The position numbers and the translations under genes were made by a program. 64,000 nucleotides of DNA, from NCBI GenBank assembly GCA_025093555.1, contig JAIWNF010000001.1, positions 372,001-436,000 on the forward strand. Reading direction: 5' to 3'. The notes beneath the pieces are model-generated. The model was not told where the DNA came from. It searched no databases and saw nothing but the letters and a program-made list of their open reading frames with translations. This stretch comes from Circinella umbellata (lineage: Eukaryota > Mucoromycota > Mucoromycetes > Mucorales > Lichtheimiaceae). Of this stretch, positions 43-19,049 are shown piece after piece; the stretch's first letter is position 1, and every line of letters starts with the position of its first letter.

Positions 43-412
43 TTGATTGGATGCTCCTAATCTTCTATTTTTGGAAAACCCATCTGCTAGTTGCTATGTT
101 TTATCATTTATTTCAAATCAAAAACCAATTATATTATATGCAATCAATCCTCAATTAAAAAGCGTTCAAAAGTACTTTTTCTTTTCCTATGTTTTCTTTT
201 TGACACTATCAAGTACATTATCAAAATGCGCAGCAATAAAAACTATAAACTCTTGGTCTGATTATGAATAGATAAATAAAAAAATTGATTGGGTGAATGC
301 TAACATGCCTATATTTTAATCAAAATTATACACTGCATACCCAAAAATTACTAGGCATGAAATTTGATATATTCAAAGCTCGCTTCTTTTTTTTTTTAAT
401 CAACACGTAAAC
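43..412. other. AT-rich intergenic / putative promoter region
   Basis: No convincing gene. An open frame at 47-271 (+) has AT-biased composition and no family resemblance. A T-tract at about 387-397 lies just upstream of the ATG at 413 and probably belongs to that gene's 5' leader. Confidence 0.5.
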
Positions 413-1231
413 ATGGTGCCTAGAAATTCACCACCACCACTCGAAACTTACATGTTTTCGCGCAATGATCTTTTCCGTCCGTGGTGGATTTCGGACAGAA
501 AAAATACAATCATTTACACGTTTTATGATTATGTTTCCAATGACAAGGAGGCATGTCAATTACTTCGTCGAAATTTTAGTGGTGAAACACGTATTATTAT
601 TCGTACACTCGAACCTATAAATTACATACAATACGATGATGAACAACAAGAACAGGAAAAAAAGTGGATTGTTCTTGAAGCACTTATACAACCCGAGGAA
701 TCGTATAAGGTGGCACTTAGACGAGGATTAAAAATCAAGCGTGATCAACAAGTCACTGTTGTGCCTGCTATCCATAGTCGTGCTGCCGGTGCTTATATGA
801 TCATGCGATTTTCTGGACTCCCATTCAATAAGGAGAAGGAAAAGAGTCGTGATGACGATGACTATGATGATGATGAAGAAGAAAGAACATGTGTAGACAA
901 AGTACGAAAGTCAATGGGAAGTATATTTCCATATTGGAAAGGTGAAAAAATTCAACTATTAGATGCGTTTGCTGAAACAGTGGATGAACAAGACGCTGTT
1001 CGATTCAAGGGCTCCGTGGTAGTTATTTTGGATGGTGATTATTATATTCCTCAAAAGAATGTGGATTCTGGATTGGCATATATTGCAGAATATAATACAG
1101 AGGTCAAGTTTAAACATATCGGTCCATTCCAATATAGTGCCTATTGTTCAACATGTCGCACAATAGATAGCCATACACCAGAAAACTGCAAGTATTTTGA
1201 AAAAGAGTACCCCGGTGGTCTATTACTTTAA
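413..1231 (+). CDS. CCHC-tailed protein, possibly derived from a retroelement ORF1/Gag
   Basis: A single-exon frame of 272 residues with start context AAACATGG. An acidic run (DDDDYDDDEEE) lies near residues 146-156. The C-terminus carries a zinc-knuckle-like cluster C245-C248-H254-C259 (CX2CX5HX4C, around YCSTC and ENCKYF). The layout is a mixed alpha/beta body, a segment with a VVVILDGDYY-type strand, then a terminal CCHC. This is the layout of LINE-type ORF1/Gag proteins common in Mucoromycota genomes, so a retroelement relic or domesticated copy is my inference. No reverse transcriptase, poly(A) tail or target duplication is visible nearby, which argues against a recent insertion. Function unknown. 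It lies in the same orientation as the zinc-knuckle microgene 1.7 kb downstream. Confidence 0.6.
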   Translation: MVPRNSPPPLETYMFSRNDLFRPWWISDRKNTIIYTFYDYVSNDKEACQLLRRNFSGETRIIIRTLEPINYIQYDDEQQEQEKKWIVLEALIQPEESYKVALRRGLKIKRDQQVTVVPAIHSRAAGAYMIMRFSGLPFNKEKEKSRDDDDYDDDEEERTCVDKVRKSMGSIFPYWKGEKIQLLDAFAETVDEQDAVRFKGSVVVILDGDYYIPQKNVDSGLAYIAEYNTEVKFKHIGPFQYSAYCSTCRTIDSHTPENCKYFEKEYPGGLLL

Positions 1232-2740
1232 AGAAATTGGAATATCACGAAATTACGAGCTTATTATATACCATCATTATTCCCTTTCAGCTTATTTACA
1301 TACTGTATCATTGAAATCAAATATCCCGCTATATAGATTACACGCCAACTGGTAGTATCTGACTTGGCTTAAGTAAAATTTATGAATCTATGTAGAGCAT
1401 TGTTGTTATTGATCCCCGTTGTATATATAGTTGAAAATAGTACAAAACCATGAGTAAATACTATCCAGGATCATTATTCCAAATGATGCTGTTTTATATA
1501 AAAGGAAAGTGATTTATGCGAGTGAACGTTGGAAGAAAAAGAAGGGAGGTAAAATCTTTCATTTACAAACAGAAGTCGATATTTGTTTGCCACATAAAGC
1601 CGTGATACAGGTATACATATCATCACTCTTTATCGTTTGAATTCCCTTTTTTTCTTGTTAATCCGAGGACGCCGCCATAAGGAATTAAAATGTGTTTCTT
1701 TTTTAAACTATGGTCCAATTGTTTTTTATTTTTGCAGAAACGCTGAGCCATATAATACATTTGACTGTTGTACGTGGTGAAACAGTGGTAATTTATTATT
1801 ATTTTTTGGCTTGGCATGCGATGTTTTATTTGAGGGAAATAATTCAATTTATCAAAGGGACCATGTGGTCGATGACTAACTTATATTTTCTTCTAATTTT
1901 TTTTTACCCGTCTCCGTATTTTAAATTCATATTCTTCGTTGTTAAATGAAAGAAAAAAGAGAAAAAGATCTACCTTTTACATAGATACGACTATTTGAGC
2001 GTAGTAACGAACTATGAATGACGATGATGATAGGTCCATGCCTCATGGCTTGCCACGCTCTATCCCAAAATGGGTAAATTATTTAGCTAGATTACAAACA
2101 ATTTTTTTTTGTTATGCATGAAAAATAATACCAGATCCTTGGTCAAAAATCATCGCTATCAATAATTTTTTATTTTACATAATATACTAATAATATCTAC
2201 ACACGACGAAAAATAATGCCACATTGTTTTATTTAAGGAGATAAGAAAAGTAATAAACTATATGCTTATCTTTACAAATTATAATTTTGTCTGATTAAAA
2301 GACTCTACTACCGTCGTGATGATGATAATGAAAACAGGAGCAGTGAAAAGAAGGAAAGAAAAATACTATATTAATAAAATTCTGCTATTGCTAAAACATA
2401 TATAGTTTAACTGCTTGACATGTATTTTCAAGGCAAAACAACCTACTTTTTGTTTCTACTGCGCAATCAAGACAAAACAAGGAGAATAAAAAAAAGTGGC
2501 GGGGGTACACAAGAATGGTATCATTTTTGCCCAGGAGGTCTAAGAATGAGCCATGTGGTCCTCGATCGAGAGAACGCCTCCGCGGCACCGGTTACTAATT
2601 CCATCATGTGCCGTGCAATAATACTTTTAGATTAGCTTTCTCTTTCTCCCTCCCCCCCCCTTTATGTCTCTGTTAATTATGCTTGCCTTTGCGCTATTTT
2701 CTCTCTCTTTCGCAGCCAACTTATCACGCTCCTCTTACAA
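1232..2740. other. intergenic, no gene recognised
   Basis: AT-rich DNA with only short open frames. About 2500-2600 is noticeably less AT-rich and precedes a C-rich run at about 2650-2660. This could be promoter-proximal sequence for the gene at 2893, but I cannot assign any factor site. Confidence 0.5.
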
Positions 2741-2744
2741 TAAA

Positions 2745-2753
2745 TATATAAAG
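2745..2753 (+). promoter_or_regulatory. TATA box of the zinc-knuckle microgene
   Basis: TATATAAAG lies 140-148 bp upstream of the ATG at 2893. It is followed by a pyrimidine-rich leader (runs of CTTTTTCTTTT) as in other expressed genes of this window. This supports real transcription of the very short coding region downstream. Confidence 0.5.
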
Positions 2754-2892
2754 GACATTATTTTCAAACTAACTTTTTCTTTTTCTTTTCTCTTAACATT
2801 GTGCTTCTTTTCCCTTTATTCTTCAACTCTCACGCATTTAAAACCTCTTCTCTTTTTTCAAAAAAAAACTTCACGAACAGCTTTAACAAACA

Positions 2893-3081
2893 ATGTCCGA
2901 TGGTAGATGTATTCACTGTGGTGCGTTGGGACATTATTCAATGTATGTTATTTGTAGCACATCACTTTTGTCTACTTTTTTTTTTTCCAATCTCATATAT
3001 TATAGCTATCTTAATAACAAAACAAAATTTCTATATACTTCTTGTAGGATGTGTCCACAAAAGCCGGCACCCTCAAAGTAA
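2893..3081 (+). CDS. 27-residue CCHC zinc-knuckle microprotein, two exons
   Basis: Exons 2893-2942 and 3048-3081 are separated by a 105-nt intron (GTATGTT donor, TTGTAG acceptor, TAATAAC-like branch site). The spliced frame encodes 27 residues, starting MSDGRCIHCGALGHYS and ending CPQKPAPSK. Splicing creates an exact CX2CX4HX4C knuckle: C6, C9 and H14 come from exon 1 and C19 from exon 2. Start context is ACAATGT. The intron is a multiple of three and stop-free, so retention would give a 62-residue protein with an altered knuckle (CX2CX4HX6C) and a hydrophobic insert. CCHC knuckles bind single-stranded nucleic acid in CNBP/Gis2 and Gag proteins; a similar role here is inference. Caveat: the terminal AAGTAAAT could also act as a splice donor into further exons, making this the first part of a longer protein. 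I found no convincing continuation. Confidence 0.55.
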   Translation: MSDGRCIHCGALGHYSMYVICSTSLLSTFFFSNLIYYSYLNNKTKFLYTSCRMCPQKPAPSK

Positions 3082-6000
3082 ATCTCACATTGTCAATAGC
3101 AGCACAGTAACGTGAAAACCAATACTTTACTTTCTTCTTGTTATTATTATTATTTTCACTTTGTATATTATATCATCAAGGTTATAATTATTTATAACCT
3201 GGATGCTGATTTCATTCAATTTTACATATTTCTTTCACACACAAATAACAGAACAATTAACCCTACTCCATATATTACATTCTTCTTCTCTCTTCCCAAC
3301 CTATACACATCCACACATCCACACTTGAACAATATACTATCTATAATCTACATAGTGTAGTTTGATACTGTATGTAGTATTATATACAATTTTGGTGTGC
3401 ACTTATATTTCTTTAAACAAAATATATAAATATTCTTATATTTATTAACAACATATAAATATATTGTTTCTGTGCAACAATTGTACTGGTTAAAAGCTTA
3501 TGTGTGTAAAAAGATGATGCGTACGCGTGTAGTATGCAGTGCATATAGGCGTACAAATATGCATCTCTGACAAGAAGATAATGCAATAAACTCATTTGTA
3601 CATGCATTATTTTGCACGATTTTTCTTTTTTTAGTAAAACAATATAATGAATTTGTGTTTCCATGCTGATTCATGGATTGTACAACGATGAATTAGTTAC
3701 TTTGTTAGACTAAACTTTTTATTCCTTACTATAATAGTGTCGTCATCACTATGAATAAAAAGAGAACTAAATGAAAAATATATATTATATTTTATCATCT
3801 CCACTGTTGTCATGTAGTATTATATAGAGTTGTGGGGTGATAAAAACAAGGTTACATTGGTTTTGTAAATACACTAAACCATATAATTATGTAAATGCAA
3901 ATTAAGGAGTAAAAGTTGAGAATAACGTTTTTTTTTCCCGGAGATTTTGAAAAAAAACTCTACATTCTCTATCACGGACGATAATTCTGAGATATAAAAA
4001 AATATATGTTTATTGCAATTCTTAATAACTCGATATTTCTATTTTATTTCTCATCTTCTCTCAAATCAGATGCAAAGGTAAATAAAACAAGCAAGATCTA
4101 AACCGTATATATTGGATTTCGAGATTAATTCTTCGACAAAAAAGATATACTAAATCATGCATTGGTTGTTTGTGTAATGCGTGACAAAAAAAATGTTGTT
4201 AAAATGATTGATGGATTGAACTACCTCACTTTTTTTTCTCTTTATATTGTACTAACAGTGGTACGATATCCATTTATTCAGCGCGGGCCTTTTGTACGAG
4301 GTGAAAGAAACAATATGATTGAATTTTAGCAAAAAATAAGTAAAAAAAGTTGTGTGAGAAGACCAAATGAAATACTTTATTGCAGTAAATGGCCTGGCCC
4401 TTATCGGCCTAATCAGCAGCAACAGACACCCGGTTTTAACTTACTCTATCTATATTTTTTCTTCGCAGTTGGGTTTCGAGTACCTTTCTTTTATTCTAAA
4501 TGTGACAGAGTTTATTATTTACTTTCAATTACTATAGTAGCAATATATATTATTATTATTATGATTGTTATTATTTGCAACAAAATGTGTTTTATAACTA
4601 GCAGTACACGCGCCTGGTATCAAACAAGTGCAACATAACAGCCTGTCACTCTCTTTCACACACAAGACTTACAATAAATAAACCTTATATTTTGTGTTAA
4701 CAGTATATTTATCAACGTTTTCGCATCTGTAAACCTTAACTTTGCCATACTCTTATAATTGAGTTCACGTTTATTTTTTTGGTGAGAGGAGAAATATGAA
4801 GTTTTGGCTGTTGATTAATTTTAAATTGGTTTATTTTATTGTATACATACTATAAAAGTATATATACAAAAGATAAGTCAAGAATATTGGAATGTCTACA
4901 TATAATCAAAAAGACTATTACTCTTTTCGCATCTATGATCTTGGCGTGATGAAATCAGTCTAGAACATCAACAGAAGTGTTGTCTCAGCAAGTAGATGTT
5001 ATAGTCGCAGTGCTACGAGTATTATGCATGATGAACACAATTGACCAGTATGTAAAGAGCAATTACTTTTTTTGTAGAGTTATACCAACAAGCCTAACGG
5101 AAAAAGGTAACATATGCATCAATGGCTACACTGATGTGATATAAATAAGCAATAATTTCTTATCGTTGAGTTTTTTTTTATTGCTTTAGAAGCAATAATG
5201 AATAATAGAGTATTTGAATACATATTTATTGATGTTTTGGGAACAAACATATCGATACATTAAAAGATTATTAATATATCTATACACACTCATGCCATTA
5301 TAGCATTTCAAACATCAATCTGACATGGAAAGACATGTTTCTAGAGTCTTGACGCTGCGCCCCACTTCGTTTTCTTTGAGACACGTTTCACAGTTAGTTT
5401 CCCCACTTTTTTTTCGCGTTGATGGCCCCCGTCTATATTAAGTTTGCATTTACTTTTGAATCTTCACTGTCTTTTGTATTTATTTTCATAAACAATTTAG
5501 CACTCTTGGACGACATCAGATCATAGCTTTTCTTTTTGGTATAATGACAAATAAGAAAGAAGTGTATTCGCTCGTTACTAATGTTGTTTGAAAGCTTCTT
5601 ACGTGATTTAATATTGTTCAAATTAAAAAATAATTTTCTATATGCATAATGCATTAATAAACTTTCTACTATGGCGGAATAATGTAGATTTTATATGATC
5701 TATCCAAAAAGCAAATAACTGAATGAACAGAAACTGGAATGATATCTATTTTTTGGGTCTCTTATTCTTTCTTTGCTCGATTTTGAGACTGTATTCAAAA
5801 GTAGTTTGTTGTATTTATTTTTCGCGAGTACAATAAGTATATATATGTTAACGAAACCGCGGATAAAGGATGGTAACACGATATCTTGCTATTTAGAATA
5901 AAAGTTCCCATTGTGTATACGGCGCTCCTGCACAATTTAATGAATATAGATACTGTCGTGCATGAGAAGTTTTTTCTTTACAAAAAAAAAAAACTGATGT

Positions 6001-18110: not shown

Positions 18111-19049
18111 ATGGCTGATTTATCCACTTCCATTGCTGGCGTTGCCCTTCCTAATCTCTTCTTCAATGCTTCAGGTGTATGCTGTCAACATGAATCTGAA
18201 TTGAAGGAATTATTAGATAGTGAATCTGGATCCCTTATTACTAAATCAGCCACATTTGAACATCGCGAAGGTAACCCAAGTCCTCGTTATGTTCCTTTGC
18301 CCACTGGTAGTATCAACTCTATGGGTCTCCCTAACGAAGGTTTTGAATACTATCTTAACTATGCCAAAAATTACGATTATACCAATAAAAAGCCCTTGTT
18401 CGTCTCTCTTTCTGGTTTAAGTCTTCAAGATAACGTTAAGATGGTCGAACAATTTGCTGCCGCCGACTTGCCCTGTGTTTTAGAAATCAATTTCTCTTGT
18501 CCCAACGTTCCTGGCAAGCCTCAATTGGGTTATGATATGGAAGCCATGGAAAATGCATTAAAGGTTCTTGCACCTATTGTCAAGAAGCCATTTGGTATCA
18601 AGCTTCCTCCTTATTTCGATATTGCTCACTTTGATGCTGTTGCTGCTATTGTTAACAAAATCGATAACTTGGCCTTTGTTACTTGTGTCAACTCAGTCGG
18701 TAATGGTTTGGCTATTGATTTTGAAACTGAAACTGCTGTCATCAAGCCTAAGGATGGTTTCGGTGGTCTAGGTGGTGCCATGATCCTTAACACTGCTTTG
18801 GCTAATGTCAATGCATTCCACCGTCGTCTCACTGGTGGTAAGCAAGTTATTGGTGTTGGCGGTGTCACCTCTGGTAAGGAAGCTTTCTTACATGTTCTTG
18901 CTGGCGCAAGTGCTGTTCAAATTGGTACTCAACTCAAGGAAGAAGGTCCTTCATTCTTTGCGCGTGTCAAAAAGGAACTTGAAGAAATTATGCAAGCCAA
19001 GGGTTATAAGTCATTGGATGATTTCCGTGGCAAGGTCAAGACATTGTAA
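18111..19049 (+). CDS. URA1: dihydroorotate dehydrogenase, class 1A (cytosolic, fumarate-type)
   Basis: An intronless 312-residue frame with start context AACAAAATGGC. It oxidises dihydroorotate to orotate, step 4 of de novo pyrimidine synthesis. Class 1A enzymes are soluble FMN homodimers that reduce fumarate. Visible features: NASGV near the N-terminus, ITKSAT (Lys45), the GSINSMGLPNEGF substrate loop, EINFSCPNVPGKPQLGYD with catalytic Cys130 (the class 1A/1B base; class 2 uses Ser), FGIKLPPYFD (FMN-binding Lys), the VNSVGNG loop, and C-terminal IGVGGVTSGKEA and VQIGTQL phosphate-binding motifs. There is no mitochondrial presequence or membrane helix, so it is not the usual class 2 enzyme. 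Its third-position bias (GCC, GGT, AAG) and lack of introns differ from its intron-rich neighbours, consistent with high expression and perhaps an ancient bacterial origin. Confidence 0.95.
   Translation: MADLSTSIAGVALPNLFFNASGVCCQHESELKELLDSESGSLITKSATFEHREGNPSPRYVPLPTGSINSMGLPNEGFEYYLNYAKNYDYTNKKPLFVSLSGLSLQDNVKMVEQFAAADLPCVLEINFSCPNVPGKPQLGYDMEAMENALKVLAPIVKKPFGIKLPPYFDIAHFDAVAAIVNKIDNLAFVTCVNSVGNGLAIDFETETAVIKPKDGFGGLGGAMILNTALANVNAFHRRLTGGKQVIGVGGVTSGKEAFLHVLAGASAVQIGTQLKEEGPSFFARVKKELEEIMQAKGYKSLDDFRGKVKTL

Follow-up and report, generated by a model that had tools for sequence, protein, structure and literature searches.

The window, a 64,000-nucleotide stretch of the Circinella umbellata genome (C1:372001-436000; the searched genome comprises 50.8 Mb in 210 contigs), holds a genuine two-exon gene for a 27-residue predicted zinc-knuckle protein. 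Exon 1 (2893..2942, + strand) encodes MSDGRCIHCGALGHYS plus two bases of Met17; exon 2 (3048..3081, +) supplies the last base of Met17, MCPQKPAPSK, and the stop. Joined (2893-2942 + 3048-3081), the exons encode MSDGRCIHCGALGHYSMMCPQKPAPSK followed by a stop, 27 residues with an exact CX2CX4HX4C motif, in which exon 1 provides three zinc ligands (C6, C9, and H14) and exon 2 the fourth (C19), just as the original prediction had it. The 105-nt, phase 2 intron between them (2943..3047, +; GTATGT...CTTGTAG) starts with GTATGTTATT. It was also correctly predicted to be in frame and stop-free in this copy: its retention would give a 62-aa product in which the motif becomes CX2CX4HX6C. The start codon has an A at -3 and is preceded by an in-frame TAA, the third codon upstream, with two sense codons in between. 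Further upstream, a CT-rich presumed transcription start and 5' leader (2775..2860, +) can be read by eye, and a TATA-like box, ATATATAAA, lies at 2744..2752 (+), with TATATAAA at 2745-2752 and the start of TATA 148 nt before the ATG.

Could such an arrangement arise by chance? A loose splice grammar (an ATG, a GTRNG donor, 50-150 nt to a YAG, and a protein of at most 40 aa with CX2CX4HX4C) finds exactly one spliced candidate in the window, this gene, and zero unspliced ones. Under the same grammar, dinucleotide shuffles of the window produced at least one spliced candidate in 12 of 1500 cases (mean 0.0087) and an unspliced candidate in 14 of 1500; with a stricter donor, 0 of 60 shuffles contained a candidate of either kind. 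Extrapolated to 50.8 Mb, the looser rate predicts about seven candidates by chance; thus, the motif alone is weak evidence for a gene, and we accept this one as real because it has paralogs and homologues.

Elsewhere in the window, an open frame of 272 aa (413-1231, +) ends in a C-terminal CX2CX5HX4C knuckle, with all its Pfam matches below the cut-off; it has two distant relatives in the genome at 20-21% identity, a 361-aa frame with a similar knuckle (C194:40237-40956) and a place that carries one stop (C145:1052689-1053360). This frame is possibly transposon ORF1-like or a member of a host gene family. An intronless, single-exon dihydroorotate dehydrogenase (18111-19046, +) aligns with Circinella minor INT45_006446 at 100% identity across 312 residues; among the matches listed, those from Phascolomyces (95%) and Zychaea (92%) follow and, outside Mucorales and Basidiobolus, the closest named entries among the matches listed are bacterial (~60%) and kinetoplastid. 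This gene may be an old horizontal transfer. The window contains no tRNA genes and no Rfam match at the gathering score, and a search of the plasmid collection gave no match.

Paralogs in the Circinella genome

A 501-nt DNA query from the window matches one other place in the genome, at C200, over 60 nt at 80% identity; the match begins at the ATG and ends 10 nt inside the intron. The C200 copy (ATG...TCAAT/GTATGTTATT...TTAG/GATGTGCCC...TAA) encodes the 27-residue MSDGRCIHCGQKGHYSMMCPKKPNSSA, and its intron interrupts the same codon in the same phase as the window intron, with the first ten bases, GTATGTTATT, identical. The spliced window protein, used as a query, reveals a third place (C137:50270-50332, minus strand, E 6.1e-8), in which the match spans window-protein residues 4-24, straight over the splice junction. 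The C137 copy encodes MPCRGRCVHCGLTGHYSMMCPKKPVVGA without an intron, the counterpart of window exon 2 running on directly from that of exon 1; it is therefore a natural control for the splice junction and could be an old retrocopy. Used as genome queries, all three proteins recover the same three places, trailed in two of these searches by three weaker matches to other knuckle proteins and in one by none. The genome protein search scored the best candidates only: the family has at least three copies, and further diverged ones may therefore exist.

All three copies are closed at both ends, with an in-frame stop at the third, 11th, and 12th codon upstream of the ATG, respectively across the set, and a stop after codon 27-28, four residues past KP. 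Relative to the common sequence of the homologues described below, the window copy has three differences in the first 23 residues (AL for QK between two glycines and Q21 for K), and the C137 copy five, its extra codon left out; the window copy is a diverged paralog, possibly with a changed specificity. The nonamer ATATATAAA is found less than 250 nt upstream of the ATG in all three paralogs; its background in the window (14 per 128 kb of strand) corresponds to a chance of ~2.7% per place. A shared promoter-like signal is suggestive only, because the nonamer was picked after looking.

How long have these copies been apart? Across the three coding sequences, whole-protein pairwise pS is 0.80-0.94 and pN 0.17-0.28 (pN/pS 0.18-0.29; Fisher p 1.3e-8 to 6.4e-6); in the core, pN falls to 0.06-0.15 and pN/pS to 0.07-0.17 (Fisher p 2.2e-7 to 1.8e-6). 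For pN/pS and the difference counts, C137 codon 3, which lies opposite a gap in alignment A1, was dropped; the query L004:1498-1584 was shifted and takes in 9 leader bases together with 78 of the 87 that are coding. The coding sequence is under purifying selection, with synonymous sites near saturation; the duplications are old, and their protein has been retained.

The three copies have no common flanking genes that blastp matches at 1e-4, judged from open frames of at least 80 aa in the opening 25 kb of the window and in 9.9 kb around each of the C200 and C137 copies. At C137:45400-55300, the neighbours resemble, by eye only, a reverse transcriptase end, a Helitron-type helicase, and a DDE transposase.

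Homologues in other Mucorales

Searching a protein database (size 5.8 billion) with the open frame of 41 residues that C200 exon 1 naturally provides returned six matches, all from Mucorales (E 0.0017 to 0.015): Mucor plumbeus INT46_002018 (26 aa), Circinella minor INT45_010846 (27 aa), Absidia repens (61 aa), Halteromyces radiatus (67 aa), Chlamydoabsidia padenii (60 aa), and Gongronella butleri (66 aa). They belong to the Mucoraceae, Lichtheimiaceae, and Cunninghamellaceae, the last family contributing all four proteins of 60-67 aa. Residues 1-22 are identical in all six, the CX2CX4HX4C spacing is present in every paralog and homologue (3/3 and 6/6), and every homologue has MM at the junction, as in the spliced or intronless form. 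INT45_010846 is identical to the spliced C200 product; thus, a gene model from another source is consistent with the intron. UniRef names both INT45_010846 and INT46_002018 as CCHC-type domain-containing protein.

The identity of 22 residues in all six matches may partly reflect a search bias by which diverged members were missed. The window copy itself is absent from the six matches to the C200 frame, in a search known to miss relatives. The 62-aa retained-intron form as a protein query returned no homologue; by an eye count, the four 60-67-aa homologues share seven five-residue words with the 62-aa window frame and fall within its length range, so this query missed relatives that its rule should catch, and both search negatives are weak. 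Scanned with an alignment of the three paralogs, prokaryote contigs gave 34 pattern matches and viral contigs 38, none of which was confirmed. That this is a real tiny gene, as first proposed, is borne out by the position and phase of the C200 intron, the C137 junction, the signature of purifying selection, and the Mucorales homologues.

Possible roles and origins of the microprotein

Which kind of knuckle does this gene encode? The window copy scores 18.6 bits against zf-CCHC (PF00098), below the gathering score of 20.8, and 22.2 bits against zf-CCHC_6 (PF15288), for which the gathering score is 22; at E up to 1, the former profile matches all three paralogs (best E 0.0019) and the latter two of three. 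The nearest solved chains by sequence are Gag nucleocapsids (2ihx), AIR2 (2lli), LIN-28 (2cqf), and a RECQL4-like helicase (2mpj), which we take to be mostly nucleic-acid binding. The 2mpj chain has 25 residues only, so a peptide of such size can be studied as a unit. Ligand spacing, profile matches, and nearest solved chains together point to a retroviral-type knuckle. The AlphaFold model of the 67-aa Halteromyces homologue is poor as a whole (mean pLDDT 57, pTM 0.27), with block means of 75 and 81 over residues 1-20 and low confidence beyond.

Across the genome, zf-CCHC gives 48 matches at E up to 0.001, which do not include the three family copies. Six of these loci were viewed and no further microgenes were found there: in five, the knuckle lies in a stop-to-stop frame 41-81 aa long that, outside the knuckle, looks unlike the family by eye, and the sixth (L019) has no match to the knuckle regular expression. 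A by-eye transposon-like frame, L008 (C201:33191-36259), has two knuckles, the second of which (CSSCGVYGHYSQNC) is close to the microprotein.

CCHC knuckles bind single-stranded nucleic acid and can bind proteins too. We consider it probable that the window holds a genuine 27-residue, one-knuckle gene of a small Mucorales family and that its product is a stand-alone, zinc-dependent peptide that binds single-stranded RNA or DNA. Gene structure, paralogs, conservation, and selection are the sequence-based part of this proposal; the nucleic-acid role is predicted from the domain. The mRNA would be spliced constitutively and the peptide would (i) fold round one zinc ion; (ii) bind single-stranded RNA or DNA via a hydrophobic/basic face of the knuckle (I7 or V7, Y15, M17/M18, R5, and K22); and (iii) probably dock on a single specific target, being a tiny component of an RNP or another nucleic-acid-handling complex. 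One specific target seems probable because nearly all residues are fixed, not the ligands alone. More tentatively, the family may be Mucorales-wide, its near-invariant 26-28-residue single-knuckle proteins acting as a small dedicated subunit of a conserved RNA-handling complex, with three specialised copies in Circinella, among which the window copy has a changed inter-glycine loop. Because four of the six homologues are annotated at 60-67 aa, the 27-aa length may apply to part of the family only.

The near-invariance of 22 residues in all six homologues also suggests one fixed partner surface, which would suit a microprotein that acts via protein binding or zinc handling: it could compete with or stabilise a larger knuckle protein, for which the 48 genomic zf-CCHC matches are possible partners or rivals, or it could carry zinc. 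We regard this as rather less than probable: the nearest solved relatives by sequence are, presumably, mostly nucleic-acid-binding knuckles, and one zinc site per 27 residues makes a poor buffer.

Where did the single knuckle come from? A domesticated Gag or LINE ORF1 knuckle would be compatible with the nucleic-acid-binding peptide favoured above; a chance open frame, the other half of this alternative, is excluded by the paralogs and homologues, and as a whole we hold the alternative to be unlikely. The C137 copy sits among by-eye transposon-derived frames, and the best non-family genomic matches include knuckles in by-eye transposon-like frames (L007 and L008), but none of these matches is strong (E 0.005 to 0.07), and L009, which by eye looks like CPSF30, is a match of comparable strength (E 0.016 to 0.11).

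The two exons might instead be the start of a longer, basic-tailed protein, with the 26-27-aa models truncated or representing a short isoform with alternative last exons. The four Cunninghamellaceae models of 60-67 aa fit this idea, as does GTAAAT, a possible donor that overlaps the window-copy stop. After the knuckle, Absidia repens and Halteromyces radiatus have a common basic tail (LKLGRKKRFS and FKIGKKRRFS), and their tails, the best of six pairs, score 40 against a mean of 18, a value matched by one of 5000 shuffles; for the five other pairs, their own scores were reached by 113 to 4900 of 5000 shuffles, and the Gongronella tail is unlike all others. (Tails for the shuffle test were trimmed by hand past the KP region, with a start a few residues further on than in the tails used for tblastn.) Against this reading, the models from Mucor plumbeus (26 aa) and from Circinella minor (27 aa) stop at the same place, as do all three genomic copies, four residues past KP; in this genome, the gene does not look like a mere first exon of a longer CNBP-like protein, the alternative raised at the outset. 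A test for longer isoforms with a donor at the stop had also been suggested: GTAAAT is present, yet no convincing downstream tail exon emerged from tests that are themselves weak. In the C200 copy, no donor-like site lies within 60 nt of where exon 2 begins, and the C137 copy has only a loose GTGGG donor match before its stop. In tblastn, the best E for the four tails was 0.11 over 2.5 kb counted from each ATG; a genome search with an 18-aa tail, itself a weak test, gave no match, and of the whole Absidia protein only residues 1-23 matched the genome. We regard this reading as improbable. Since a tail is common to two of the four longer proteins, longer forms may exist in some lineages: the Absidia/Halteromyces tail is possibly a lineage-specific C-terminal extension, and either the tail is real in part of the Cunninghamellaceae or the models were lengthened by annotation.

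Finally, regulated intron retention as an on/off switch for the knuckle, which the in-frame, stop-free intron and 62-aa product of the window copy had inspired, is very improbable and does not hold up as a conserved feature, because retention of the C200 intron (76 nt versus 105 nt in the window, not a multiple of three, with in-frame stops) would mean a stop after 31 residues, the C137 copy has no intron, and all six homologues have MM at the junction; the retained form as a protein query also had no match, a weak negative. A switch specific to the window copy may exist.

For a conserved eukaryotic protein, 27 residues encoded by a spliced gene is an unusually small size. The part of the matching literature that was covered contained no description of such a family, and literature on an 18-residue knuckle peptide offered nothing of use; the domain is old, and its stand-alone 27-residue form, conserved to this degree, appears to be undescribed. 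As a minimal zinc knuckle that stands alone and can be tested, the protein lends itself well to the question of what one knuckle does by itself.

Comparison with known zinc-knuckle systems

The closest known proteins, INT45_010846 and INT46_002018, belong to the same family, from which the window copy differs at three of the first 23 residues. CNBP and Gis2 carry multiple tandem knuckles per protein. The microprotein has the same CX2CX4HX4C knuckle and probably shares their binding to single-stranded nucleic acid but, unlike them, consists of one knuckle in 27 aa followed by a stop in all three genomic copies. With the Gag nucleocapsid knuckles (2ihx, which we take to be from Rous sarcoma virus, and NCp10, 1a6b, presumably from Moloney virus) it shares a compact knuckle with basic flanks, and 2ihx is its best PDB sequence match. 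Unlike Gag, the microgene is not joined to a gag/pol frame, judged by reading frames, and has its own stop; two of its three copies also contain an intron, and its conservation extends across genera. AIR2 (2lli and 3nyb), which we take to be the knuckle protein of the TRAMP complex, is the second-best PDB match, shares the GHY..CP spacing, and is a fungal RNA-handling protein; the solved AIR2 chain, however, gives five aligned stretches within a larger protein. Very small stand-alone zinc fingers are also reported from Haloferax volcanii, in the form of one-domain zinc finger micro-proteins (PMC6562870; PMC11241148). The likeness lies in size and autonomy: the Haloferax fingers are reported to be of the archaeal C(P)XCG type (PMC6562870; PMC11241148), whereas the Circinella microprotein is a CCHC knuckle.
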